DNA from: Polytrichum commune
Taxonomy: Eukaryota > Streptophyta > Polytrichopsida > Polytrichales > Polytrichaceae
Direction: 5' to 3'
DNA length: 64,000 nucleotides
NCBI GenBank assembly: GCA_950295325.1
Contig: OX485808.1
Span: forward strand, 20,668,527-20,732,526
The position numbers and the translations under genes were made by a program. Positions 1 through 36,022 of this stretch are shown one piece after another (within the stretch, counting starts at the first letter, position 1; the number at the start of each line of letters is the position of its first letter). The notes below the pieces were generated by a model. The model saw nothing but the letters and a program-made list of their open reading frames with translations, did not search any database and was not told where the DNA came from.

Positions 1-57
1 ATAGTAAAGTTCAAAGGCGGGAATGGGAAAGTTGGATTTGTTGCTGTGGGTGGCAGC
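1..57 (-). CDS. Exon 22: Pro-rich exon reaching the window edge
   Basis: Acceptor TTCCTTGCAG|G at 58-61. The frame is open to position 1 and begins LPPTATNPTFPFPPLNFT with sequon NFT. The 57 nt seen equals the usual size of a type L exon, so the donor may lie just outside the window. Confidence 0.72.
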
Positions 58-3000
58 CTGCAAGGAAATATGCCCATTGTTGTTATAATAAGGTCTGCAG
101 GTTTCAATAACCAAGAGGAACTCAAGTAATGTAAATATCCGAAGTGAGAAAAAAACAGGTATAGGGGGTTGGGAAGATTGTCCTATTAATGGTTGGTATG
201 GATCTGCTTACTCACAGTTCACATCCCTCAGATGACACTCCTGACGATCTTAGGTAAAATTTCTGCACAAATTAGCCTGTATCTTTCTTTTGCTTGTCAT
301 TCAAAGAGCTAACTAACTATGCCAGCAACATACAGTCTCGGATGCACAATAACAATTTGTAGAGAAACACTTGTAAAATTGAGTCACTTACGTGTTGCTG
401 GCAGGAGGGGCCGAGATGTTTGGGAACGAAATGGGTGGTGGAAGGGGCCTGCGTGCAGCAGTCAATATTATTCAGCGAAACTGCAACCTTGGAATTTTAT
501 TTTCCCTCTGTTGACTGTGAATCACGCTCTGAAGTAAGCGTTCACGACATAGTTGTCTCAACAAGTGCACTCAAAATTGCTTGAATTGCGTTTCAGGAGA
601 CCACAACAAGGACAGTTCACAAGGAAGCTCACAAGGTTGGCAGAGGCGGTATCGTCCCATTCAAGGTTGGTGTTGTTCTGCAAAATCAGATGACAAATTC
701 AGACCTTTGAAAGTGTGCACCCTAAACCCTGAACCCTTAATCATACAGTATACATAGTGTTTGCCTATGTAGCCTGAAGATGTAATCCTCAATCACTTCA
801 GTGGAAACAAATAGTAGGACAAATTAAATCGAGATTGTTGTCGACCCAGTTAGCCTCATGAGATTAGTGATTCTCAAATCTCTTAGTAGTAACCCCCAGA
901 AGAGTCTGGAGTAGTTGTGCACTTACAATGATGAGTCTCATATATTACTTAAGGTAGACAACCTTTAACTGGTTACTTTTTTCCAAGTAGCCTATGATAT
1001 GTAACACGTGATTAGTTGATTAGCCAATCCAATTTGAGGCCGTAGCCACTTTCCTCATAATCTTTGGAGCTCATATGAATATCTTATTCATTATCAAAGT
1101 GAAGGTTCTTGTGCTCATTAAATGGTCATATAGATCCCCCTCACCCCCCCCACAATTATGTTGACCATTAAGCCTAGAATGGTTATCATATTTTGAGCAC
1201 CTAGTCCAATCTCTTTAAAACACGTCTTTCTGGTATCCATTCTTGGAGGCACACCTAACCACATACCACTCAAATATAGGTGTTCTAATAAGAAAAGTAA
1301 GAGAATAAGGGTTGTCTACCTTATCGACAAGCTCTACATTTTTTCCATAAGATTGGTTGTACAAACACTTTTGGCAGCTATTACTCAAATATTTGGAGAC
1401 ATGATACTGACTTCCACAATAGTTCAGTGATAAACTTACATGTTTGGGAAGGAGATGTTGGGCAAAGTGGTGTTGGGAAGCGAAAGAGGTGGTGGCAAAG
1501 GCCTGCATGCAATCCTTAAATTTCTCAGAGAAATGAAGCACTCCTATTTCTGACACCATGATAAGGGATACAGAATTAAGTGAGTTGCACTCGAAAAGGG
1601 GAATGAAGACTTGGCTACAAAGTTCACCTGCTTATGAGAATAACCAGGTATGTATAAACTTACAGTGTTGGGAGCGGGGGAACTGTGAAGTTTTGCGTTG
1701 GTGTGGTCCTGCACCCACCATACAGGCACAATATGAGTCGATTGGATCTTGTACTCTTCTCATTCCAGGATTTTTATCATATCAGGATAAATTTCAGAAC
1801 ACATGATAAATACTCGTTTGCAGAAACCACACTTGTAATAACTTACACATTGATAGCAAGAGGAGGGGGAGAGGTTGAAATGGGTGGAGGCGGAGACCAG
1901 CAAAAAATGCTTAAAGTTATCACTCCAAAATGCAACATTGCCATCTTGTCCAAGGAAAATGTTGAAAAACAATCTTGCTCGGTATTGGCTCTTTTGGTTT
2001 TGTAATAGGGTGTCAGACATGGGGCCCAAATTTGGGCATCTTCATGCAACCAAGGGTTTGGCTTTGATGTTCTCTTTAGGAGTGTGTCAAGGCTTGATAT
2101 TCTGAGAGGTTGAATTCATTAAAGCGGCCATTTCGTTTTCTTCTTTCCCTCTTCTTCTTGGGTGATGTGCCAGATTAAAACCTTTTTTTTTGTCCTTTGT
2201 TTTCATGCCTAGGAATTTGCAGCCATACACTCATCTTCAATTAATTCCCCCTCTTGTGCATTCACATGAGTAAGTACTGCAACGTGGAGTGCACCCCCAG
2301 AGATGCACATGCATTCAACAAATTTTCCCTCCACATATATAGAGTTCAGTAGAACTTATAATTTATCTGAGGATAAAATTTTAAGAATATAAACACCTCA
2401 CGACTTTGTGACATATCTAATTCAAACTTGTAAAGAATGATGGATCATTTTCAGGGGTGCTATGAGCATACATAACTTTTTGGAAACCCCTGAGAATCTG
2501 ACATATCATTTTTCAATACCTACTTCTGTGGTTACATTTTGGACCCCATTTAATTCTAGGAGTGTACATTCTAGAATCAACCCTTAAGTAAATCTTATGA
2601 ATCCAAAATGGGACCCTCTACTATAAATGGATAGAATCATAGATGTTGCTAGAAAGAATGTGATAGATAACAATAAAATTCCACGCATAGCCTTTGAAAT
2701 TGTCTATCATCTCCAAGAAGGTGACCTGTCAAGTGTCCGTCTTTTGTAGAAAAAGCATTAATTGGCACGGTGAAGGTTTGGAAAGGAGTGGGAGCTGACT
2801 ATGGTGGAGCTAAAAATTTGTAAAGAAACATTTGTAAAATTGAGTCACTTACGTGTTGCTGGTAGGAGGGGCCGAGATGTTTGGGAACGAAATGGGTGGT
2901 GGAAGGGGCCTGCATGCAACGATCAATATTATTCAGTGAAACAACAACCTTAGAAATTTATTTTCCCTCTGTTGACTGTGAATCACGCTCTGAAGCAAGT

Positions 3001-6000
3001 GTTCACGATGAATTAGTCTCAACATGTGCACTCAAATTTGCTTGAATTATGTTTCAGAAGATCACAACAAGAATGGTTCACAAATGAAGCTCACAAGGTT
3101 GGCAGAGGCGATATCGTCCAATTCAAGGTTGGCGTTGTTCTGCAAAATCAGATGACAAATTCAGACCTTTGAAAGTGTGCACCCTAAACCCTGAACCCTT
3201 AATCATACAGTATACATAGTGTTTGCCTATGTAGCCTGAAGATGTAGTCCTCAATCATTTCAGTGGAAACAAATAGTAGGACAAATTAAATCGAGATTGT
3301 TGTCAACCCAATTAGCCTCATGAGATTAGTGATTTTGAGACCTCTTAGTAGTAACCCACAGAAGAGTCTGCAGTAATTGTGCACTTGCATTGATGAATCT
3401 CATATATTACTCAATATCTAAGTTCTCGACTAGCTCTATGTTCTCGCCTTAAGATCTTATAACTCTCCCTATTCCAGGATTGTTATCATATCAGCATAAA
3501 TTTCTGAACACATGATAAACACTCGTTTGCAGAAAACACATTTGCAATAACTTACACATTGATAGCAGGAGGGGGAGAGGTTTTGGGGGTCGAAACAGGT
3601 GGTGGAGGAGACCTGCAAAAAATGCTGAAAGTTGTCACTACAAAATGCAAAATTGCCATCACCGGATCTTAAGTTGTTCAAAATGGCCTAAGAAAGAATT
3701 AGATATCTACTGTAAGTGGTAACACTGAAATTTTTTGTTCAGGGAATTTTGCCTCGGGGCTTGAAAACAATACGAGAACAATAATGAACTTACGAGCTCG
3801 GGGGCGGAGGAGACACCAGGATTGGTATGGGTCTGCGCGCACCATACATGCACAATATAAGTCGTTTGGGTCTTGTACTCTTTTTGTCACAAGATTTTAT
3901 CATGTTAGAACACGTGATAAATACTCGTTTGCAGAAAACACACTTGTAATAACTTACACTTGGATAGCAGGAGGAGGGGGAGAGGTTTTGGGGGTCGAAA
4001 CAGGTGGTGGAGGAGACCTGCGAAGAATGCTGAAAGTTGTCACTACAAAATGAAAAATTGCCATCACCGGATCTTAAGTCGTTCGAAATGGCCTAAGAAA
4101 GAATTAGATATCTACTGTAAGTGGTAACACTGAATAAAGTTGTTCAGGGAGTTTTGCCTCGGAGCTTGAAAACAATACAAGGAGAACAATGATGAACTTA
4201 CGAGCTCGGGGGCGGAGGAGACGTCAGGATTGGTATTGGTCTGCACGCACCATACATGGACAATATAAGTCGTTTGGGTCTTGTACTCTTCTTGTTGCAG
4301 GAATTTATCATATCAGAACACATGTTAAATACTTGTTTGCAGAAAACACACTTGTAATAACTTACACTTGGATAGCAGGAGGAGGGGGAGAGGTTTTGGG
4401 GGTCGAAACAGGTGGTGGAGGAGACCTGCGAAGGATGCTGAAAGTTGTCACTACAAAATGCAAAATTGCCATCACCGTATCTTAAGTCGTTCGAAATGGC
4501 CTAAGAAAGAATTAGATCTCAACTGTAAGTGGTAACACTGAATGAAATTGTTCAGGGAGTTTTGCCTCGGAGCTTAAAAACAATACAAGGAGAACAATGA
4601 TGAACTTACGAGCTCGGGGGCGGAGGAGACGTCAGGATTGGTATTGGTCTGCACGCACCATACATGGACAATATAAGTCGTGTGGGTCTTGTACTCTTCT
4701 TGTTGCAGGAATTTATCATATCAGAACACATGTTAAATACTTGTTTGCAGAAAACACACTTGTAATAACTTACACTTGGATAGCAGGAGGAGGGGGAGAG
4801 GTTTTGGGGGTTGAAACGGGTGGAGGAAACCTGTGAAGAATGCTGAAAGTTGTAAGTACAAAATGCAACATTTCCATCGCCGGCTCTTAGATATCTACTG
4901 TACGTAGTAACACTGAAAAAATTTTGCTCAGAGAGTTTTGTCTCAAAATAATACAACAAGAACGATAATGAACTTACAAGCTCGGGGGCGGAGGAGACGT
5001 CAGGATTGATATGGGTCTGCACTAGCACAAATCACAGTTTAGTTCTATGGAAGCCAAATCCTGTCCAGATTCACACTTGATATGTTTAGGGTTTCAAACT
5101 TGATATGTAGATCGCACAATGCAAGCAACCATCAATGTTGAGTCAATGTTGATGCACGCCTTTCAGGACATCAAGGGTTGAGTCCTACCTGTTTGATGCC
5201 AGTGAGAGCATCAAATGAACAGAGCAATTAATTTATATCGAAACGGAATACGGGTGCTGTCTGGTTCAACACAGCATGATTACTCTTTGGAAGACATTTA
5301 CCACATGTCATATTCACATTGGTCAATCCCTTGTTGAAACCCACTTGGAAATCGCCTCTCGACACTCATACTGTTGAAGCAGACATCACTGGACGGTAAC
5401 ATGAATGATCAACCAGGTTTCTGTATAGGAAGGAATCCACCAGAGCTAAATCATGGGTTGAGTCCTAGCGACTAGTTTGTGAACATTTCTGATTGGACCA
5501 AAGCAATAAATCTAAAATCTCTATTAAAACGGAATGACATATATGATCAACCAGGTTCTGTAGGAAAGGAATTCACTACAGCTAAGTCGAGGGTTGAGTC
5601 GTCGTGAGTTTGTGAACTCTGCTGCCATTGAGAACATCAAAGGTTTATAGTTATGAATTCCATTGAAACAGATTGACATAAAGGATCAACACCTGTTCTG
5701 TAAAAAAAGGAATAAACTACGGAGAAGTATACTTACGGAGGTGGAGAACTTGTGAGCCTTGGCGGAGGGGTTGCTGCTGCCGGAGATGTAGTATTTTGGA
5801 GCCATAGCGGAAGAGGTATTCCGAGGGTTGGAATGGTGACATTCACAGGCAAGAAGTTGATTACTGGTACTTCTGGAATTGTGAGATTCACAGGCTCGAA
5901 GGTTGGTAGGGGCACTTCGTAGGAGACAGTCCCGCCGGTGACTGGAAGATCCCATGCCCTAAAACCCCCAAAACCAACCAAATGAGCATACGGTGGCTTC

Positions 6001-9000
6001 CAAACAAAAGAAAAGGAGACAGACAACACCATTTCCTTTCCTCTCAGAATTCAACAGATGTGACACATTTTCATGTGGATGCACAAACCTTTAGAATCAT
6101 ATTGCCATCAACACTGATTTCACGTTCATTCAATCACATCAAACTACAACAGTAAATCCATGACTTTTAAACGTATGGTCACTGCAATGTTGATATCTTG
6201 ATCAATGTTTCTGTATTTAATAGTTTCAAGACCTGAAGGTTGAATGAATCATTAGCCAAGTGTTGATAAGTTGGCACTGAAGAAAGATATCAATCCCTAA
6301 AGGATATGTCTCAACACTGAAGATCCAATGTCCCAAACCACCCCCGCCAAACCAATCAATGAGCACATTGTAGCTTCCAAATAGAGCACACATGAATGCT
6401 GACAAGGGTAAGACATCATGCAAAGCTGCTCATTTTCTTTTTTCTCTGAATATAATAGATTTTACACATTTTCTTGTAGATGCACAACATCACAAACTCA
6501 AAAAATCATATTGTCATCAACATTGATTTCACGTTGATTCAATCACATCAAACTACAATAGCGAATCCATGCGTAATGACCCAGAAACCCCAAACCAACC
6601 AATGAGCACACTGTGGCTTCCAAATAGAACACATCATCATAACATTCTTCAACCATTGTACAGATCACTCTTTATGGGGGAATGGTACTCTTCAGTATCG
6701 TAAAATATACACGTCCCTGATGATTATGCAGATCCACACCTTCAGACTGAAGATGGATCCTACTTCCTGCTCAGGCTTCAATTCAGATGAATGAGAAGGA
6801 GAAATCAGACAGTCGGGCAGGAAGTTAGGGACGTGGCATGATTGCTCTATACAGAAATGGAAAAGGGTGCAGGGTTATGTTGTTGAAGAATGATATGATA
6901 GATGCTGAAAAGAGACAAACATTGGCATGCACAACCACTCAATTTTTATTTATTATTGTATCTGACTTCAGCAGATTTGACACCATTTCATATGAATGCA
7001 CAACATCACAAACCTCTAACATCATAAGGTTGACATCCCTTATTCAGTTGCTTTTCATATTAGGACACTTTCATCTGAATGGTATATGGTATGGTGTGGC
7101 TCCAAGAACAAATACCATAATGTGTGGAAAAAAAATTGGACCACATGCTCAAAACATGATAACCATTCTATATTCAGTTCTCAACATAATTGGAAAGACC
7201 TAAATGACCATTTAACAAACACGTGATCTTCACTTTGATAATGAATAAGGTATTCATGTGAGCTCCGAAAATTATGAGGAAAGTGGCTCCAGCCTTGATT
7301 TGGATTTGCTGACCATCTTGTACTAGTCACATGTTTCATATCATGGGAGAAGTGGGCTAGTCGGAAAAAGTAACCTTTTAAGACCCATCCAACCTTATGC
7401 CATCATCACTGGTTTCACGTTGATTCCATCACATAAAACTACAACAGATCTAAGCCCTAAATCCCCCAAACCAATCAATAAGCACACCGTGTCTCCAAAT
7501 AGAGCGCACGAATGCTGAAATTGGACGTTGGCATGCACATCCACTCTTTTTCTTTTCTTTATTAATCTCTGTCTTCAACGGATTTGATACATTTTCATGT
7601 CGATGCAAATCATCACAAACCCTTCAAATCATATGTCAACACTGATTTCACATCGATTTAATCACAACAAACCACAACAGTGAAACCATGCTCCCTAAAG
7701 CCCTAAAACCCCCACCCTAAACCAATGAGCACATTGTGGCTTCCAATCAGAGCGTTATGAATGCTCAAAAGGGATATTGACATCATGCATAACCACTCCT
7801 TTCCTTTTCTCTTGGAATTCAACAGATCTGACACATTACAACAACATCACAAGCCTCTAAAATCATATGTCAACACTGATTTTGCATTGATTCCATGACA
7901 TCAAACTAAGATACCTATTGCGGGTATTATTCGGTTACTTTTCTTAATCGAGCACTTTTCTTAATCGAACACCTAGATTTGATGGGTGTGTACTTTGGTG
8001 AGGATCAAAGAACAACCATCCTGAAGACACATGTTCAAAAGAGATTGGCTTACATTTGCAAATTTTATAAACTACTCCACATTCAATGGTGAACACAATT
8101 GGGAAGACCCATGTATTCATCACTTAAGGAATCGACCACCGAGCACTTCCGATAATCACAACTAAATCAGGGGAGGTCCGAACTTCAACCCAATTATTGC
8201 TATTGCTTCAACGCAGCACTAGTTTCGTTGTGTAAATCCAATGGGTAGAAGTTGGAGAACATGAAAAACGAACCGAATCTCACCCACATATCTTACAACA
8301 GTGAGATGAACCTTATATCAAATACATTGTGTATCATGTGTAGATTCATAGGCGCGCAGTTACTTACGGGATGCTTAGGTTGAGATTGTAGCCAGGTAAG
8401 GTGCCAGTCAGATTGTTCCCTGCCAAGCTTCTGCGAAAACATCATCACAACAAAAATCATGAGCTTTCAAATCACAATGTGTCTAGATCCATATGTCATC
8501 AACACTGGGTTTTATTGATTCAATTCCATCAACCTACAAATTGGATTTATTGTCGCCTACCAAATATGAGGTTGCAATATTAATCTTTCTTTTCTATATT
8601 TTATAGTTGGCAAGACCTGAACAGGTTGAATTATGAGTTGAACCAAGATAAGCTTAATGTTGAGTTAGCACTCAAAAGATATTAAACCCTAAAGGCTATG
8701 TATCAACACTGACTGGACATGAAACATTGAACGTCATCCATTTGCATTTTTGAGATTTTGAGATATTTCATGTGGGTGGGCATGAGTAGAGAGTGGACTT
8801 GTGGAGGATTCTTACAATGTCTCGAGGTTTTTGAGATTTAGAATCCATGTCGGAAAGGTCCCGGATATTTTTGGGTTGTTTGCAACAATCCTGCATGCAT
8901 CATACACTAGAAATTGTGAGGGCCCTTGAATCTCATCCGAAGGCCGTCCATGCACAATTGGAATTGAATTTTGTGTGGTCACGGACCTCAAGTGTAGTGT

Positions 9001-11250
9001 GACGACATATGCAATTCGGGCTCTCAACTGAATACTATTTCATCACCCTCTTATAATTTATTGGGCCCAGATTCTATACAACAAAGTTATTATAAATCAA
9101 GGGTGGTGAGATTTGAAGTGTCATTGTCTCCGCTTTTGGGTTAAGGTTAGACCTAACCCACCTCTTTGAGGTGGAGGACTGGACGCAAGAATTCGGCGGA
9201 ACCATTAAACATTATTCAGCCTTTGCAGGTTTTCCATCCATTCAAATGCTTGTAAAGGGTTGTTGTTCATTCAAACCAGTGTATACTTGAGGTTCATGAA
9301 TGCTTACAAGTTTGTCAAGTCTTTGAGGTCAGCTGTGGCCTGGGGGATGGGACCCTTGAACAAGGTCTTTCTGATCGTCAGGCTCCTCAAGAATTTCAAA
9401 TGTTTGATTGTATCCTACGATTTACATGTCAAGCAGGAGCTGAGATGTCAGAGATCATCATCAGGTCACCTGGATTAATCATGGAATTTAGTTCATCAAG
9501 GTGGGGTTTGGATCAAGAGCCATCAATCAAAGACTTACAGGAATTCTGCCCTTGAACTCAGAACCTTCCAACATCCTGCAGAGACCCACCGCAACTGAAC
9601 CAGTTTGAGATCAAATCCTCTAAAGAATTTGATTAAAACCTTCTCATCAAATATATTTAAATCTCATCTGGTGTGCAAAATTTTCATCCCCACTTGCCAC
9701 CATTCCTGCCAATTTTATTCGCCCAAGTTCAGGCATCACAGGCTTAAGGTCTGTCACGGGTGTTGTCCGGTTAGTTTTTCACGTTCTTCAAATTCTACGT
9801 ATTAGATTTACACAACGGAACTTGTGTTGGATTAGCAAACTTACGATGAAGAATCAGCAAAAATTGGATTGAAAATCGCACCTCCTCTAGTTTTGTTATG
9901 GTTTTCAGAGGTGTGTTGTTTGTTGATTTCTTAACTGAGCACATGAGGGCCTCCCAATTGTGTTTCCTATTGAATTAATAAACTTTGAAGATGGTACGGT
10001 CCATCTCTTTTAAACACTTGTCTTTGTGATGTTTGCTTTTTTATCCTCCAGAACTCATAACATTTTTAAGCAGTGTGCATTTGTTCATGTGGGCCTTGAG
10101 AATATAACCATGGGATGTCCTGACCTAGTGCATATTAAGACTTAATTTGAGTATCATTGCACTAGGTTGGGACATCCCATGGTTATATTCTCAGGTTCCA
10201 CATGAACGAATGCACACTAAGTTAATAATGTTGTGGGTTCTGGAGGAAAAAAGAACAAACACCATAAAGACACATGTTTAAACGAGATTGGGCCGTAACA
10301 TCTTCAAACTTTATTAATTCGATAGTGAAACACAATTGAGAGGACCTATGTGCTCAGTTAAGAAATCAACAAACAACACACCTCTGAAAACCATAACTTA
10401 ATAAGAGGAGGTCTGATTTTCAATCCAATTTTTGCTGATTCTTCATCGTAAGTTTGCCAATCCAACACAAGTTCCGTTGTGTAAATCTAATACGTAGAAT
10501 ATGAAGGACGTGAAAAACCGACCGGAACACCCGTGACATACCTTAAGCCTAGATAGAATGCTCGATTCCTCTCTATCTAGACTCAAGGAACAAATCTGCA
10601 AGAATTGGTATCCTCAGATCAAGGAATGAATGCCGAGCAGGGTCCAGTGACAAGCTTCACATGTCAACATTTGATGCTTGCATCAAAGTGCTATATGTGA
10701 TTCTCAGACTGCCCAAGGGAACACTCTTATGAAGCTAACTCAAGTCCGAGAATGTTATGGCTACGTCTTGTAATATCTTGGTCTTGAAATTGCACTGAAT
10801 GGAATTCCAAAAGATGGATTTGATGGCGTACAGCTCCGTGACGGAATTCCGATCCTGGTTGCACACAATCCCGCGCCATGTGCCCGAACATGCATTTGTT
10901 CTTGGATCCCATGATCGCAGAGCCGCCGGGACCTCCAACGCCCTCTTGAATGCCAACAGCAACCTCTCTAAATCCACCAACCCTCTAAATTAGTTCCCAA
11001 ACCCAAGCTTGATCATTTCACCACAACCATATAATGCACTTCTGATCACCTGAAACCGTTACAGCTGCATCACTCATAACCAATCCCAAATTGGTTGTTT
11101 TATTTATTCAGCAACAGCATTGAAACCCCGTGATTTTGTACCTTCAGATGCAAGGTCTGCGTAAGCGAACGACAAGAACGTCGACCCCAACAGCAGGAGG
11201 GATAACAGATTCACAGCGGCTCCCGCCATTGCTGTGCCTCGTGATTGCAT
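1..11250 (-). CDS. Multi-exon LRR/extensin-like secreted or receptor-type protein, 3' end outside window
   Basis: Spliced gene read 11250 to 1. Seen: signal peptide (exon 1), LRR N-terminal cap with the W..R..C-type pattern (exon 2), four plant-type LRRs (exons 3-6), a spacer with NLT, NVT and NTT glycosylation sequons (exon 7), then about 250 residues encoded by mini-exons of 39-63 nt rich in SPPPP, PLPPP and TTPT motifs (exons 8-22). All 22 exons join with matching phases and no stop over about 507 codons, which random sequence would not give. Known: LRR plus Pro-rich linker occurs in the STRUBBELIG-type LRR-V receptor kinases, in LRX cell-wall proteins and in other LRR kinases. SPPPP is the extensin hydroxyproline glycosylation motif. 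Inferred: a secreted or plasma-membrane protein touching the cell wall. No transmembrane or kinase part is visible because the gene leaves the window. Three introns carry TIR elements. Exon 2's donor (GTACGC) is weak. Confidence 0.8.
392..448 (-). CDS. Exon 21: Pro-rich mini-exon, type L
   Basis: 57 nt, acceptor GCACGCAG|G, donor AACAC|GTAAGTG. It reads PLPPPISFPNISAPPASN. Confidence 0.75.
633..677 (-). CDS. Exon 20: Thr/Pro mini-exon, type T
   Basis: 45 nt, acceptor ATTTTGCAG|A, donor ACCTT|GTGAGC. It reads TTPTLNGTIPPLPT with sequon NGT. Part of the 0.36-0.94 kb duplication. Confidence 0.74.
950..1330. repeat. Fragment of the TTAA foldback family in an intron
   Basis: Resembles, in inverted orientation, 7060-7390, and in direct orientation 40765-40950 and 20250-20370. 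Its distal part also matches the inner arm of the foldback at 9748-10542. No coding potential seen. Confidence 0.6.
1440..1502 (-). CDS. Exon 19: Pro-rich mini-exon, type L (long form)
   Basis: 63 nt, acceptor GCATGCAG|G, donor AACAT|GTAAGTT. It reads PLPPPLSLPNTTLPNISFPN with sequons NTT and NIS. Two codons longer than exons 17 and 21. Confidence 0.75.
1664..1708 (-). CDS. Exon 18: Thr/Pro mini-exon, type T
   Basis: 45 nt, acceptor GGGTGCAG|G, donor AACACT|GTAAGT. It reads TTPTQNFTVPPLPT with sequon NFT. Confidence 0.74.
1847..1897 (-). pseudogene. Dead type V mini-exon with lost acceptor
   Basis: A clear homologue of the type V exons (SPPPPISTSPPPLAIN, 51 nt, phase 2 to 2) with a good donor AATGT|GTAAGT. 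The acceptor reads TTTTTTGCTG instead of TTTTTTGCAG, so the AG is lost. Skipping it leaves the frame intact because both flanking introns are phase 2. An upstream AG at about 1912-1911 might allow a longer, still open exon. Confidence 0.6.
1945..2720. repeat. ~750 bp dispersed repeat, intronic copy
   Basis: Matches 13345-14045 over its length in the same orientation (e.g. GTATTGGCTCTTTTGGTTTT shared). It begins right where the tandem exon unit is interrupted (after ATTGCCATC), so it looks inserted. No open frame and no clear terminal repeats. Confidence 0.7.
2853..2909 (-). CDS. Exon 17: Pro-rich mini-exon, type L
   Basis: 57 nt, acceptor TGCATGCAG|G, donor AACAC|GTAAGTG. It reads PLPPPISFPNISAPPTSN with sequon NIS. 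Paralogue of exon 22. Confidence 0.75.
3095..3139 (-). CDS. Exon 16: Thr/Pro mini-exon, type T
   Basis: 45 nt, acceptor ATTTTGCAG|A, donor ACCTT|GTGAGC, phase 2 to 2. It reads TTPTLNWTISPLPT with sequon NWT. Paralogue of exon 21. Confidence 0.74.
3556..3612 (-). CDS. Exon 15: Pro-rich mini-exon, type V (copy 4)
   Basis: 57 nt, acceptor ATTTTTTGCAG|G, donor AATGT|GTAAGT. It reads SPPPPVSTPKTSPPPAIN. Confidence 0.77.
3794..3832 (-). CDS. Exon 14: Pro-rich mini-exon, type P (copy 4)
   Basis: 39 nt, acceptor GCGCGCAG|A, donor GAGCTC|GTAAGTTC. It reads PIPILVSPPPPS (Val replaces Thr). Confidence 0.78.
3958..4017 (-). CDS. Exon 13: Pro-rich mini-exon, type V (copy 3)
   Basis: 60 nt, exactly 408 bp from exon 11, acceptor TTCGCAG|G, donor CAAGT|GTAAGT. 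Same peptide as exon 11. Confidence 0.78.
4202..4240 (-). CDS. Exon 12: Pro-rich mini-exon, type P (copy 3)
   Basis: 39 nt with the same splice sites and peptide as exon 10, exactly 408 bp away. Confidence 0.78.
4366..4425 (-). CDS. Exon 11: Pro-rich mini-exon, type V (copy 2)
   Basis: 60 nt, acceptor TTCGCAG|G, donor CAAGT|GTAAGT. It reads SPPPPVSTPKTSPPPPAIQ with two extensin SPPPP blocks. Confidence 0.78.
4610..4648 (-). CDS. Exon 10: Pro-rich mini-exon, type P (copy 2)
   Basis: 39 nt, acceptor GCGTGCAG|A, donor GAGCTC|GTAAGTTC. It reads PIPILTSPPPPS. Identical at exon level to exon 12. Confidence 0.78.
4774..4830 (-). CDS. Exon 9: Pro-rich mini-exon, type V (copy 1)
   Basis: 57 nt, acceptor TTCTTCACAG|G, donor CAAGT|GTAAGT. 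It reads FPPPVSTPKTSPPPPAIQ. Compared with its siblings it lacks one Pro codon. Confidence 0.77.
4978..5016 (-). CDS. Exon 8: Pro-rich mini-exon, type P (copy 1)
   Basis: 39 nt, acceptor CTAGTGCAG|A, donor GAGCTT|GTAAGTTC, phase 2 to 2. It reads PISILTSPPPPS. This is the most diverged of four copies. Confidence 0.78.
5100..5710. repeat. Short tandem repeat in intron 7
   Basis: A motif GATCAACCAGGTT.CTGTA followed by AGCTAA.TC..GGGTTGAGTC recurs at about 5407, 5545 and 5681, spacing near 138 bp, degenerate. Confidence 0.55.
5737..5958 (-). CDS. Exon 7: glycosylation-rich spacer entering the Pro-rich region
   Basis: 222 nt (73 codons plus flanking bases), acceptor GGGGGTTTTAG|G, donor CACCTCC|GTAAGTAT. 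It opens AWDLPVTGGTVSYEV, contains sequons NLT, NVT and NTT, and ends in PPPRLTSSPPP. I do not recognise the domain. It may be a degenerate extra-LRR segment or a linker. Confidence 0.78.
7060..7390. repeat. Inverted copy of the 950-1330 element fragment
   Basis: The reverse complement matches 950-1215 (e.g. AATTATGTTGA, CTTTCCTCATAAT, TAAAAGGTTACTTTTTCC). Lies in intron 6. Confidence 0.6.
7912..8313. mobile_element. TTAA foldback family, ~400 bp copy in intron 6
   Basis: Left end TAAGATACCTATTGCGGGT, right end ACCCACATATCTTA. Internal sequence matches the arms of 9748-10542 and 22321-22709, including AACCCAATTATTGC and GTTGTGTAAATCCAATGG. Non-coding. Confidence 0.65.
8368..8430 (-). CDS. 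Exon 6: LRR4
   Basis: 63 nt, acceptor TTTTCGCAG|A, donor ATCCC|GTAAGT, phase 2 to 2. It reads LSLAGNNLTGTLPGYNLNLS, the LxLxxNxLxGxLP pattern. It is followed by a 2.4 kb intron full of degenerate repeats. Confidence 0.83.
8816..8890 (-). CDS. Exon 5: LRR3
   Basis: 75 nt, acceptor GCATGCAG|G, donor ACATT|GTAAGA, phase 2 to 2. Joined to exon 4 it reads LTNLIVANNPKISGTFPTW then ILNLKNLET. Its size is close to the usual 72 nt single-LRR exon of plant LRR receptor genes. Confidence 0.82.
9308..9414 (-). CDS. Exon 4: LRR1 end and LRR2
   Basis: 107 nt, acceptor AATCGTAG|GAT, donor AACTT|GTAAGC. It encodes DTIKHLKFLRSLTIRKTLFK then GPIPQATADLKDLTN. A TAG lies immediately upstream in frame, which fixes the start. 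It ends in phase 2. Confidence 0.78.
9539..9575 (-). CDS. Exon 3: first LRR, N-terminal half
   Basis: 37 nt between TCTCTGCAG| and CCT|GTAAGT. Joined to exon 2 it reads VTELMLEGSEFKGRIP, a textbook LRR line. It ends in phase 0. The preceding intron contains the 795 bp foldback element. Confidence 0.72.
9748..10542. mobile_element. 795 bp foldback transposon flanked by TTAA
   Basis: Two arms of about 380 bp in inverted orientation around a short centre near 10145. Ends are GGTCTGTCACGGGTGTT and AACACCCGTGACATACC. Both sides carry TTAA (9744-9747 and 10543-10546), inside a longer palindromic AGGCTTAA / TTAAGCCT context. TTAA duplications are typical of piggyBac-type elements, but the ends do not match a family I can name. 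It lies in intron 2 of the LRR gene. Confidence 0.8.
10832..10982 (-). CDS. Exon 2: LRR N-terminal cap
   Basis: 151 nt. The acceptor TTTAGAG|GG restores the frame from exon 1. It encodes LVDLERLLLAFKRALEVP, RSWDPRTNACSGTWRGIVC and NSVTEL, i.e. the LRRNT_2 pattern (leucine-rich helix, then C...W.G..C). The end at CT|GTACGC is placed where plant LRR genes usually have their first phase-2 intron, and it joins cleanly to exon 3. The donor is weak; the frame can also read on for 32 codons to a TAG near 10735. Confidence 0.7.
11142..11250 (-). CDS. Exon 1: start codon and signal peptide
   Basis: 109 nt, 36 codons plus one base. The ATG at 11250 opens MQSRGTAMAGAAVNLL..., with a second in-frame Met at codon 8 (11229). 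A hydrophobic core LLSLLLLGSTFLSF is followed by AYA, a good signal-peptidase site. The donor is CTGAAG|GTACAA. Either Met gives a working signal peptide; the first is chosen because no in-frame stop separates them. Confidence 0.82.
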
Positions 11251-31790: not shown

Positions 31791-32379
31791 AAATCTTGGG
31801 GGGGGGGTCACTCCCTTTTAGAATAAGTATACACATGTGATAACGTAGTATTTTATGGGGGCAATTTACCTACTATAATGAATTATAAGGCATGCTAATT
31901 TTCAAAATGATGGTAAATGATTGTCACTATTAACACCCTATGGGTAGTTCTAAATTGTTGAATGTTTGATTTAATGGTACCCTATGTTAATATTTGTAAA
32001 AATAAATTCCCCAAAGTCCTTAAAGTATACGATAAACTACAAGCCATGTTCATTGGGTTGGAGCTCTTACGAAGACAAAGAATAGTGAAACCTTGATCTA
32101 GAAGCCATTGGGGGTGATGATTTCATGAGTGATTTAATTTAACCCTCAACTCTTCACCAAAACATCAACAGTTATTTATCCACCCTCCATAATTAAAATA
32201 TGGATTTTCATATCTAGCCCCTTGTTTTCATGATATTTTATATGTATCACTTAGGTAATTCTATGAGGTTATACTGATTTCTATATTACATATAATAGTG
32301 TTTCACACACCTAGAGCACTCTATGCTATATGTAATCATGTTTAAAAATCTACCCAAAAATATAAATTCATACCCTATA

Positions 32380-34950
32380 TTTATTGCATGTAGTTCCGTA
32401 CACGCCTTGCAAGGAGAGAAAGAGATTGAAGTGCCACGGTGCAACCAAAGACAACCATACATGGAGACCATACTTCAAACCCGGCACCCGACAAACACAC
32501 AAGCACAGACAAAAGCAAGCCCAACTAACAAAAGTTGACCAATGCTCCCAATGGTGGCACACCTTTCTAACCTCGACCACCACCGGGATTCCATGGAAAC
32601 CCTCCACAAATCTCCAACCAAGGCTTCCACACGTTCGATGAACATAAATTCTATGGATATTGTCACATATCTACGCGCTTATCGGCATCCAACCTCCCAA
32701 AGCTCTTCATATTTGTTAGGATATGTGTTTCTATGTTTTGTTCACTCTACTTTCTTTCAATAAGAGTACAAACTCCTACCTTGGATTTTTATCATCTGCC
32801 ATATATGTCTACACACAATCTACCACCAACCGACCTCTTTCCATGAAAACATTCACATCACAAAGTTGCAACACAAAGCCACAACCATCAAGTAATACAT
32901 CAACAACAGTGACACCCTAAGTGGTGGCTACTAAATCACACATTCATATTTCTCGTCGCTCCTTACACACCCAAGAATCCTCAAACATTACAACTCACTG
33001 TATAATCGAGGCAAAGTCTTTGGAGCAACCATACTTGTGCAACCATTACAATGGGAAGGTAACAGACTGACCCACCCTTTTCGACTACAACTATGCCACA
33101 ATGGCCATCCACTAGGCACGGATGGTCGCCAAGGAACATCATAACACTACAACCGTTTTCATATTCAACCATGAAGAAAATCCGCCACCGATCAAACATG
33201 CATACATAAACACCGTCCTAACTAATCACCAAGTACCATTCAATATAGCCACACGTTGGAATGGCCAAATTATCTATACAAACATGAAACCAATATACCT
33301 CCATCGTATGCATCCACAACCTAAGATCCCCCCAATGTACCAACTCTTTAAAAAAAAAACATACTCACACCCAACATATCCGACCCATATAACATCTTTG
33401 TTAGAACCAACAATAAACAAGGCACCCCTCTAGAATACAAAGTTAAATTTTTCAAAACATGGCCAACCACTTTAAAACATACCAACTTAATATTCACACA
33501 CACCATGCAACCCCTACCCAAAGCATCACACAACATTCACATCCTCAAGTACAACCCGAAACAATGCATCTACGTGGTTAGCTTGTTCATTCCCCCAAAC
33601 GAACATGGAGTAGGCAACATAGCTAGCTCTGGTGTCTACATCCTAGCCAACAACCTTTGAATAGCAATGTCTCCTAGGCCTACAAAACATACTCATGGCC
33701 AAACTAAAATGCCTTACAAATAACAATCACCACTACAAGACACCACCCCCAAGATACCATCATCCTCACAAATAGTCATTATAGTATCTACTTATTAAAC
33801 GACCACATAAGAGACCCATCATCCCAACACAACCACCTTAACAAGTTACTCCTCTCAGTCATAGTCAACCAATTTATTTGGTCACCCACAAAATCACAAT
33901 ACAAAACTCCATGCACATATTGGCAATATAAGCAATGAAATAATGGACCAAATAGCGAATGATGGAACCGCCTTAGACTAACATATTATCGACCCCCCTC
34001 AACCCCGTTACATGTAGCACACATCACACCATATTGGCTAAATGGAAAAATGAAGCACATGCATGCACCATCCGCAACCTACAAGCGTACATAATCAAAG
34101 TCCACCGAGAGATTGAACTCGCAATAGTCAAATAATAAATTACCTACGTAAACAAAAGGGTTTCAAATGACCAAATCGACCAAAAACACTACAATCACTT
34201 TTGGAAAGCCCCCAAAATCTTAGATGCCCAAACCACACAAACACTTGAGTTTTGATATGCGTGATGCATGGGTTTTTACTGTAAAAGCAATTTTTGGCCA
34301 ACCACACATCCAAAGACAAATTGCACATTATACCCCCAACAACACTAGAGACACATGGCCCCGCCTTTCTGTCCATATGCTCGAACTCACACATAAAAGG
34401 ACTATGCATTGCCCATCATAATAACAATGCACACCAAATAACACACACACTACGGTCAAACAAAAACACACAAGATCCTACGCCCTCATCAATGCAATTC
34501 TAGACCCCAAGACATCGCAGTTCCCGAATGGCTAGTCAAACGTACATGCACCATCTCCCCACGTACATCCATGGCTAGCCTTAGGCTAGACATTCTATGT
34601 GTACTAGGCGCCTCCATAGATACCCCCCCCCCTCCCCAACACCAACTCTACCAAATGTTATACGATTCTTAGAATTCACGTATTAACATAGATTCCCCAC
34701 CACTTCACATAGAGAAAAATTCACTCAAGACAATCCACTCATACAAACACTTAGAATCACAGAATGGCAAGTCAACCCTCTCACCACCATCACTGCAAGT
34801 GTAAGGGAAGCCATCCATGAACACTCAATCCAGTTAGAACACCTCAAAATATACACAAACAAGGTTTAATGACTCATGAAGCACATGCACTAGAACATCA
34901 TCAAATACTTCACATACATAGTAACTCAACAAAGTAAAACTAGACAACAA
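32380..34950 (+). pseudogene. Decayed LINE-type retrotransposon with RNase H
   Basis: A 2.6 kb block with strong strand bias (rich in A and C on plus), unlike its flanks. Broken frames on plus give recognisable RNase H pieces: IILTNSHYSIYLLN at 33759-33800 (the catalytic TDS position reads TNS), then LHAHIGNISNEIMDQIANDG at 33908-33967, matching the H.GI.GNE.AD..A core, after a frameshift. Downstream, LSICSNSHIKGLCIAHHN (34355-34408) and VPEWLVKRTC then LRLDIL resemble the tail found after RNase H in some plant LINEs. Stops and frameshifts make it inactive. No poly(A) or target duplication located. Confidence 0.68.
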
Positions 34951-35397
34951 ACAAAACCCCGCGAATTTAGAATCGCGTCATACACAATGCCCAAAGAAGC
35001 CCATTTTTCGTAAGGAAAGATATAACCTTATTGTGAAGCTTGGTAACACATGATCACATCAAGGAAGAACAAGCACCCATTCACGTTGGTGTAGAAACAC
35101 ACCAATTTTGTTTTTATTTTATAATATTTTTCTTTAGACATTTAGAGATTACGTACTGGGCACCGCAGTATGGAAAGTGCTCAAAGTTACAATTGCTAAA
35201 GAAGACCTTCATTTTCTCTGAATTGTAGTTTATTCCATAATATGCAGGGAGAATTCATGCTCCATTGAACAATGCCATTTTGTGAGCAACCTACCATTGT
35301 GGAAACAACGACATTTTGCATTAAATTTTTTTGTTAAGAAATGATCTAGCAAACATCATTTGGCAAAAAGCATTCAAACATCAATATGGTATCATGT
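34951..35397. other. Intergenic, no feature seen
   Basis: Ordinary AT-rich sequence. Confidence 0.5.
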
Positions 35398-35550
35398 CCC
35401 GATCACACCAAAATGTTTATCCGGTTCCAGCCGTGACATTGTTGAGGATTATGTTCAGAATTAGATGTGGCCTACCACTTTTCACATTATTATAGCCGGA
35501 GATGCCAACGGATGGTGTCTAAACTAGCCGGTGTGATGAGCCCCTCAGCT
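35398..35550. mobile_element. GATCACACC-ended MITE, short copy
   Basis: TCCCGATCACACC at left and CCGGTGTGATGAGCCCCTCA at right. The interior matches 24268-24421 (TCCGGTTC.AGCCGTGA, GGAGATGC). Confidence 0.75.
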
Positions 35551-35918
35551 CTTCCTTCTATAGTGGGCAAAATGGGAGAGATAACCCTTAAAATGATTTT
35601 AAGAAGATCTGCCAAAGAAATCCCTCCCCAATGGTACGTTATGTTGAAAAATAACATTATGGTTGAGAAATATTACTAGACTATTAAAGGGAGTTGATGC
35701 CACATAATTTTTCTACCATGCTCTCATGCTTTTTGTGTTAGGCCACCTCTTTCTAGTGGGCATGATGAAAGATCCAGCTAGCCATTAGAAAGAAAAAAAG
35801 GAAGCGACGTTGTTCTCTTACACTAACATGCAATGTTTGGCATTGCCTCTAACCCATGTCCACATGGGCATGGGGGATAGAGGTGGTTAATTACCTATGT
35901 TCATAGGTGGACTATGGG

Positions 35919-35941
35919 TTAGAGAGAGAGAGAGAGAGATT
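35919..35941. repeat. (GA)n microsatellite
   Basis: AGAGAGAGAGAGAGAGAGA run. Confidence 0.85.
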
Positions 35942-36022
35942 TGGTTTTAGTAAGTTTTTAGTTTAGTGGGACCGGGCTTGTTTCTTTTCAACTTTTCTTT
36001 TGTTTAGGATGATATGTGTTAA

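Follow-up and report, generated by a model that had tools for sequence, protein, structure and literature searches.

A probable moss gene for an LRR-linker-LRR glycoprotein with a proline-rich tether partly encoded by tandemly duplicated mini-exons

Introduction

Repeats in wall glycoproteins are commonly assumed to change in length by slippage or unequal exchange within one exon. In classical LRX proteins, which carry leucine-rich repeats (LRRs), the extensin forms the C-terminal part, and the micro-exon genes of schistosomes encode secreted proteins from symmetric micro-exons. Here we describe a gene in a window of 64,000 nucleotides (the whole stretch of DNA that was analysed) from the moss Polytrichum commune (locus G000:C6:20668527-20732526), which is probably functional and would encode a secreted, chimeric, proline-rich LRR-linker-LRR glycoprotein, whose tether is partly composed of symmetric mini-exons multiplied by tandem duplication. 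Chimeric proline-rich LRR genes are a known kind; what is unusual is the exon design.

LRXs are described as RALF-binding proteins which the extensin domain anchors in the wall (PMC10824444); LRXs were predicted for moss and spikemoss (PMC6482432). Splicing changes length and passive stiffness of titin (PMC6469411), and brown-algal ROCO genes contain one LRR per 72-bp exon of phase 2 (PMC11378527). One exon of the moss gene, R3, is likewise a 72-nt phase-2 LRR exon. A first-pass annotation of the window had described, at positions 1-5958, an extensin-like linker built from at least fifteen symmetric phase-2 mini-exons downstream of LRRs. This observation was real; its extent was misjudged, and the kind of linker was partly misjudged.

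Results and Discussion

Gene Model and Exon Anatomy

The genome searched comprised 408 Mb in 64 contigs. Negative positions continue the numbering of the window past position 1, with 0 being the last base of the next 10 kb (L001). On the minus strand the gene runs from position 11250 past position 1 and through L001, and it ends in L002. The hand-built model consists of 35 exons (4704 nt) encoding 1567 amino acids (aa) in the layout LRR-linker-LRR, with no internal stops; exon borders were hand-picked, partly guided by a paralogue on contig C5 (see below), a choice to which the open frame is in part due.

Between a hinge exon and a long exon, 20 mini-exons of 27-108 nt were placed, each a multiple of three in length, entered and left in phase 2, preceded by AG and followed by GT; 14 are within 1-5958 (39-63 nt), one straddles position 1 and five are beyond. 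Together they encode about 327-341 aa of the tether. For mini-exon N1 there is a choice of donors: 108 nt give a total of 1567 aa and 66 nt give 1553 aa, the latter also with no internal stop and with a Leu at the junction, like T5/N2, N2/N3, N3/N4 and N4/N5. The proposed minimum of fifteen mini-exons was reached with N1, and the predicted junctions 4366/4240 and 4202/4017 are exact in the coordinates of the model. The statement that all exons are of phase 2-2 with acceptor and donor holds for the 14 intact ones, but not for V5, with TG as acceptor, or a T-like piece of 47 nt. "Good" is true of the splice sites only in a rough sense: 12 of the 20 mini-exons are listed at the cut-offs of a rough splice-site score (weight matrices), with one unrelated 18-nt candidate besides them. 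The features are as follows (scan and pattern are described below).

11142..11250, minus: exon 1, ATG and signal-peptide-like segment (by eye), 109 nt; paralogue 109 nt, 38.8% aa identity
10832..10967, minus: exon 2, LRR N-terminal cap LRRNT_2, two Cys; PF08263 E 1.7e-7, paralogue match 54%
9539..9575, minus: exon 3, LRR part, 37 nt, phase 2-0; model, paralogue 37 nt
9308..9414, minus: exon 4, LRR, 107 nt, phase 0-2; paralogue 107 nt, 71% identity
8816..8890, minus: exon 5, LRR, 75 nt, phase 2-2; model and paralogue
8368..8430, minus: exon 6, LRR, 63 nt, phase 2-2; model and paralogue
5737..5958, minus: hinge exon, 222 nt, opening the proline-rich linker; paralogue hinge 159 nt, 43% identity
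4978..5016, minus: mini-exon P1, 39 nt, phase 2-2; model and fixed-rule scan
4774..4830, minus: mini-exon V1, 57 nt; model and fixed-rule scan
4610..4648, minus: mini-exon P2, 39 nt; model and fixed-rule scan
4366..4425, minus: mini-exon V2, 60 nt; model, fixed-rule scan and V/L pattern
4202..4240, minus: mini-exon P3, 39 nt; model and fixed-rule scan
3958..4017, minus: mini-exon V3, 60 nt; model, fixed-rule scan and V/L pattern
3794..3832, minus: mini-exon P4, 39 nt; model and fixed-rule scan
3556..3612, minus: mini-exon V4, 57 nt; model, fixed-rule scan and V/L pattern
3506..4889, minus: tandem array of a 408-bp P-V cassette in 3.4 copies, introns included; Tandem Repeats Finder (TRF), 93% matches, 0% indels
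3095..3139, minus: mini-exon T1, 45 nt; model, missed by fixed-rule scan (too few Pro)
2853..2909, minus: mini-exon L1, 57 nt; model, fixed-rule scan and V/L pattern
1847..1897, minus: V5, V-type remnant, multiple of three, open, acceptor TG for AG; probably skipped, outside model
1664..1708, minus: mini-exon T2, 45 nt, preceded by a homologue of a V-to-P intron; model and fixed-rule scan
1440..1502, minus: mini-exon L2, 63 nt; model and fixed-rule scan
633..677, minus: mini-exon T3, 45 nt; model and fixed-rule scan
392..448, minus: mini-exon L3, 57 nt; model, fixed-rule scan and V/L pattern
157..203, minus: T-like segment, 47 nt (not a multiple of three), poor donor, remnant; outside model
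57 past position 1 to -8 (66 nt) or -50 (108 nt), minus: mini-exon N1, both forms phase 2-2
-537..-590, minus: T5; model, beyond window
-810..-836, minus: N2; model, beyond window
-1016..-1063, minus: N3; model, beyond window
-1371..-1409, minus: N4; model, beyond window
-2380..-2424, minus: N5; model, beyond window
-3699..-6140, minus: long exon, 2442 nt, 814 aa; model, beyond window
-6333..-10276, minus: second LRR block and Cys end; model, beyond window

The long exon is followed by a 102-nt exon with a PPCDETK motif, by phase-2 LRR exons of 51-72 nt and by a Cys-rich end, with the stop codon in R7. The cap has the Pfam domain of plant extracellular LRR proteins (PF08263, 31.9 bits, cut-off 20.7), and both blocks contain plant-type repeats (PF00560, LRR_1; N block 22.7 bits, C block 53.7 bits, cut-off 20.6). 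The solved structures closest by sequence were the plant LRR receptors GSO1 and FLS2, as expected for plant LRRs.

Mini-Exons and Chance

The observed array is genuine and clearly exceeds what chance would give. A scan with fixed rules ([CT]AG, 27-66 nt, GT[AG]AG, open frame of phase 2, at least 28% Pro) yielded 15 matches in the 9.66-kb array, all of them model exons (15 of 20), the surprise being overstated, since the criteria were chosen after the exons were known and tandem copies are not independent. In 84 kb, one further match was found on the minus strand outside the array (3' end of the long exon), and the plus strand had none at all. In 300 replicates of a Markov-1 null of the array there were 0.003 matches on average and never more than one; two matches each were obtained with entry phases 0 and 1. 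A V/L-like pattern (GCAGGNCNNNNCCNCCN{18,48}GTAAGT), which is blind to the P, T and N types, V1 and L2, had five matches in the 408 Mb, each of them within this gene (V2, V3, V4, L1, L3), and its reversed control had 2 + 2. The GC content of the mini-exons is 0.54 versus 0.38 for the intervening introns.

Composition and Growth of the Linker

The linker comprises 1229 aa with 35% Pro. It is not built of mini-exons in the main, as had been assumed: 814 of the 1229 aa, two thirds, are supplied by the one exon of 2442 nt past position 1, which contains a 48-nt repeat (L001 5170-6256) in 22.6 copies, plus longer units. Nor does it simply lie downstream of LRRs; the N block is ahead of it, but a second LRR block follows. 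Eleven SP3+ motifs are inside the P/V exons and one is at the hinge/P1 junction; none were present from T1 to N5, in the long exon or in the linker of the paralogue. Conversely, N-x-S/T sequons number 70 in the linker of this copy and 59 in that of the paralogue, with none within the P/V array. Because of the confinement of SP3+ motifs to the hinge/P1 junction and the P/V exons, the term "extensin-like" is apt for the P/V cassettes only, while the rest is rich in N-x-S/T. A signal-peptide-like start (by eye), the Pro content and the SP3+ motifs in one part would be compatible with a chimeric hydroxyproline-rich glycoprotein.

TRF detected the 408-bp P-V unit in 3.4 copies; P2, P3 and P4 are spaced by exactly 408, P1 and P2 by 368. 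T1-L1 and T3-L3 belong to a duplication of 604 bp, whose copies agree at 92% and are shifted by 2462. Both duplications support the earlier suggestion of modular growth by unequal exchange, and adjacent homologous exons with introns and symmetric phase are the features of a tandem exon-duplication gene. The upstream introns of T2 and P4 are 78.5% alike over 149 nt (E 1e-34). Acceptor plus exon of V matched those of L1 and L3 with 76% over 50-51 nt (E 3e-7 and 1e-7) and those of L2 with 71% over 62 nt (E 1e-5), to which a common Pro-rich composition may contribute. Because of these matches P/T and V/L would appear to be homologous pairs, and one two-exon cassette was probably multiplied; the four exon types P, V, T and L were thus seen correctly, but probably go back to two ancestral types.

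The intron after L1 (2807-2714) resembles the 3' part of N1 with its flank (-1 to -93; 86% over 94 nt), and this sequence is possibly coding at one site and intronic at the other.

The Paralogue and the Family

A search with the N-terminal block led to the paralogue (C5:32338001-32358000), for which a model of 17 exons and 1023 aa, without internal stop and with the same skeleton, was obtained. Exon lengths are equal for E1, E3, E4, E5, E6, R2, R3 and R4. Its linker consists of a hinge exon, three mini-exons (36, 45 and 39 nt; one with Cys) and a 1845-nt long exon containing a 69-nt repeat in 12.9 copies (L003 3833-4728); the different main repeat units of the two long exons suggest separate re-expansion. 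The LRR parts are constrained, with proportions of synonymous (pS) and nonsynonymous (pN) differences of 0.742 (saturated) and 0.287, respectively (307 codons); for the hinge, pS was 0.589 and pN 0.425 (52 codons). The P/V and T/L arrays are not present in the model of the paralogue, and they were either expanded in this copy or lost in the other. Expansion would be the direction suggested by the youth of the tandem copies.

Among the best 150 of 222 matches, the N block retrieved this gene together with one close relative (C5, 56%), the others showing 31-45% identity. With the N block of the paralogue (best 150 of 1528) the same two genes alone exceeded 45% identity among the matches listed. 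The paralogue was not among the matches listed for the C block (best 150 of 621), and the cut-off of a further family search (best 150 of 933) missed even this gene. The family therefore has at least two members, two being a lower bound.

Constraint on the Array and Alternative Explanations

Exons were less diverged than introns in 10 of 11 pairwise comparisons, with p < 0.05 in five, which is support and not proof, since the comparisons are pairwise alignments that share sequences and are not independent. Significant differences were obtained with the P-V units U1/U2 (exon 6/96 versus intron 54/255, p 0.0007), U1/U3 (6/96 versus 45/253, p 0.006), U1/U4 (9/93 versus 50/224, p 0.011) and U2/U3 (0/99 versus 15/293, p 0.015), and with T3L3/T2L2 (34/96 versus 141/253, p 0.0008). 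All scored exon indels were of 3, 6 or 9 nt; many intron indels were not multiples of three. These data bear on the possibility that the array is a dead or optional intron, the mRNA usually joining the hinge to a late N exon or to the long exon, with young tandem junk that is still open. Skipping would be harmless owing to the symmetry of the exons; the acceptor of V5 and the frame of the T-like piece are lost; two of the three comparisons among the young units U2-U4 showed no significant exon-intron difference, and the paralogue has just three mini-exons. However, the older pairs (U1 versus U2, U3 and U4; T3L3 versus T2L2) retained exons over introns, with exon indels in multiples of three, and 14 of the 16 array members recognised in the window (N1 aside) kept splice sites and frame. 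We regard a dead or optional array as unlikely.

Still less can be said for two adjacent genes, one encoding LRRs followed by a proline-rich tail, the other comprising the long exon and the second LRRs. The intron of 1274 nt ahead of the long exon and the Cys-containing start of the C-terminal block (PPCDETK) would fit such an arrangement, but phase 2 continues across the linker with no stop, and the same order is found in the paralogue on another contig; two genes would thus be very improbable. A similarly small chance is given to a wrong count of the near-identical cassettes (U2-U4) in the assembly: only 15 of 392 aligned positions separate U2 from U3, and the spacing of P2-P3-P4 is exactly 408, yet every unit is distinct, and U1 differs by about 18-22% in its introns and is 368 from P2.

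Several observations weigh against a functional gene with a spliced array, which nevertheless is the reading we prefer. Six of the 11 comparisons were not significant (U2/U4 p 0.28, U3/U4 p 0.81, T1L1/T3L3 p 0.11, T1L1/T2L2 p 0.075); they include V5, which showed no excess of conservation against U4V (11/51 versus flanks 21/99, p 1) and no significant one against U3V (7/51 versus flanks 22/96, p 0.2). V5 and the 47-nt piece are decayed, N1 has two poor donors, and three V exons have alternative in-frame acceptors 12 nt upstream; the splice junctions of all mini-exons are predictions from sequence. For the paralogue, no counterpart of R5 was recognised and the 3' end is unsettled (cut inside R7, no stop placed), and the comparison covers the paralogues of one genome.

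Relation to LRX Proteins, Receptor Kinases and Neighbouring Sequences

An LRX query gave 19 matches at E <= 1e-6 (best 150 of 1361), of which two, both on C1, were strong (E 6.5e-40, 59%); the gene and its paralogue were not among these 19, in a search which proceeds exon by exon and disfavours split genes. In each of these two LRX-like genes a single uninterrupted frame (710 and 721 aa) contains the LRRs together with SPPPPSPSPPPP, so that the notion of LRX linkers residing in long uninterrupted exons is true for them. In both paralogues the linker is followed by an LRR block and a Cys tail, so that the Pro-rich part is not the C-terminus, a weak distinction, as both LRX-like genes also carry a domain after the extensin. 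Membership in LRX/PEX was rejected on the basis of the N-terminal search, within its exon-by-exon scope of the best 150 matches, and of the domain order. Pfam Extensin_2 had no match genome-wide, which is uninformative, since the control likewise matched nowhere.

The LRX-like genes (L005 1-2046 minus, L006 1276-3342 plus; C1:58790252 and C1:58881286) are in opposite orientation, 91 kb apart. Both have a C-type lectin domain after the extensin in the same frame (PF00059, E 5.6e-6 and 1.8e-6, above cut-off); to our knowledge, an LRX-lectin fusion has not been described from seed plants.

No kinase was found with Pfam in nine of the open reading frames (ORFs) listed for the minus strand of L002, although small exons could escape; one of these ORFs had a DED match far under the cut-off (17.8 of 35.9 bits). 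A receptor of the kinase type (SRF, PERK, STRUBBELIG-type) was dismissed because of the stop in R7 and the lack of a kinase match in the tested ORFs.

The neighbouring gene next found is a plant eIF4B on the opposite strand (PF06273, E 1.9e-39). The intron between exons 2 and 3 (9766-10526) contains a long inverted repeat resembling a miniature inverted-repeat transposable element, with arms of 179 nt, 94% complementary, and also inner arms. At 32001-36000 of the window, the plus strand has GC skews of -0.375 and -0.168, and no frame of at least 120 aa is present there.

Proposed Function and Meaning

If spliced in vivo as predicted, the gene would encode, in this order, a signal peptide, an LRR N-cap, about four LRRs, a Pro-rich tether of 1229 aa, a short second LRR block and a Cys-rich tail. 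After secretion, hydroxylation and glycosylation, the tether would most likely serve as a length-flexible, heavily glycosylated spacer, which could keep two LRR binding heads in the wall. A linker exon, or a pair of them, could be duplicated, lost or skipped with the frame intact; gain or loss would be neutral in this respect because most surrounding LRR exons are also of phase 2. Tandem duplication through unequal exchange probably multiplied the two-exon cassette in this copy, with the P/V branch acquiring SP3-4 sites of the extensin type. Tether length would then evolve in two ways, by changes of repeats in the long exon and by tandem duplication of symmetric exons.

Two routes of length change on one linker, the 48-nt repeat in the long exon and the 408-bp exon cassette, are of interest, since the second would bring tether length and type of glycosylation within the reach of splicing. 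The phase 2 shared with the surrounding LRR exons also suggests how a Pro-rich linker could grow inside an LRR gene. A more far-reaching idea, which we consider rather doubtful, is a counterpart of the titin PEVK region, where the length of an extracellular tether between the two LRR heads and its kind of glycan (N-glycans or extensin arabinosides) would be determined exon by exon via regulated inclusion and copy-number variation between individuals, and where the T modules are perhaps former phase-2 LRR exons that have shrunk. A test of 15 module peptides against an LRR profile gave shuffle p values of about 0.006-0.007 for each of T1-T3, which are, however, mutual copies, and 0.024 for P2; the other 11 were not significant at 0.05. 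By this test, an LRR origin of linker modules was judged weak.

Comparison with Known Systems

A literature search, with most subscription journals outside its scope, found no such gene, and no firm claim of absence is made. Plant microexons are also very short internal coding exons of land plants and are often unannotated, but those catalogued have 1-15 nt and conserved gene positions (PMC8831610, PMC12409088); the words "tandem" and "proline" are absent from the main text of both papers, and "extensin" from that of PMC8831610. Schistosome micro-exon genes belong to another kingdom and protein class, and no homology is claimed. LRX/PEX proteins share with the predicted protein a secreted LRR domain and a Pro-rich stretch with SP3+ motifs, and they have no kinase (PMC10824444, PMC6482432); in the moss gene, however, the linker is between two LRR blocks, consists for the most part of N-x-S/T and PPLP sequence, and is in part divided among mini-exons.

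As a working analogue, the PEVK region of titin comes closest, a Pro-rich spring with many small exons which were duplicated and lost in evolution (PMC6469411). The likeness is one of design: titin is a muscle protein, no homology is claimed, and regulation by splicing, which was shown for titin, is proposed here. At the level of exons, the LRR exons of brown-algal ROCO genes are the closest precedent, since symmetric phase-2 exons act there as duplicable modules in an LRR gene (PMC11378527); the difference is that the LRRs multiply in the algae, whereas in the moss it is the linker, with eight non-linker exons being stable in length between the paralogues.

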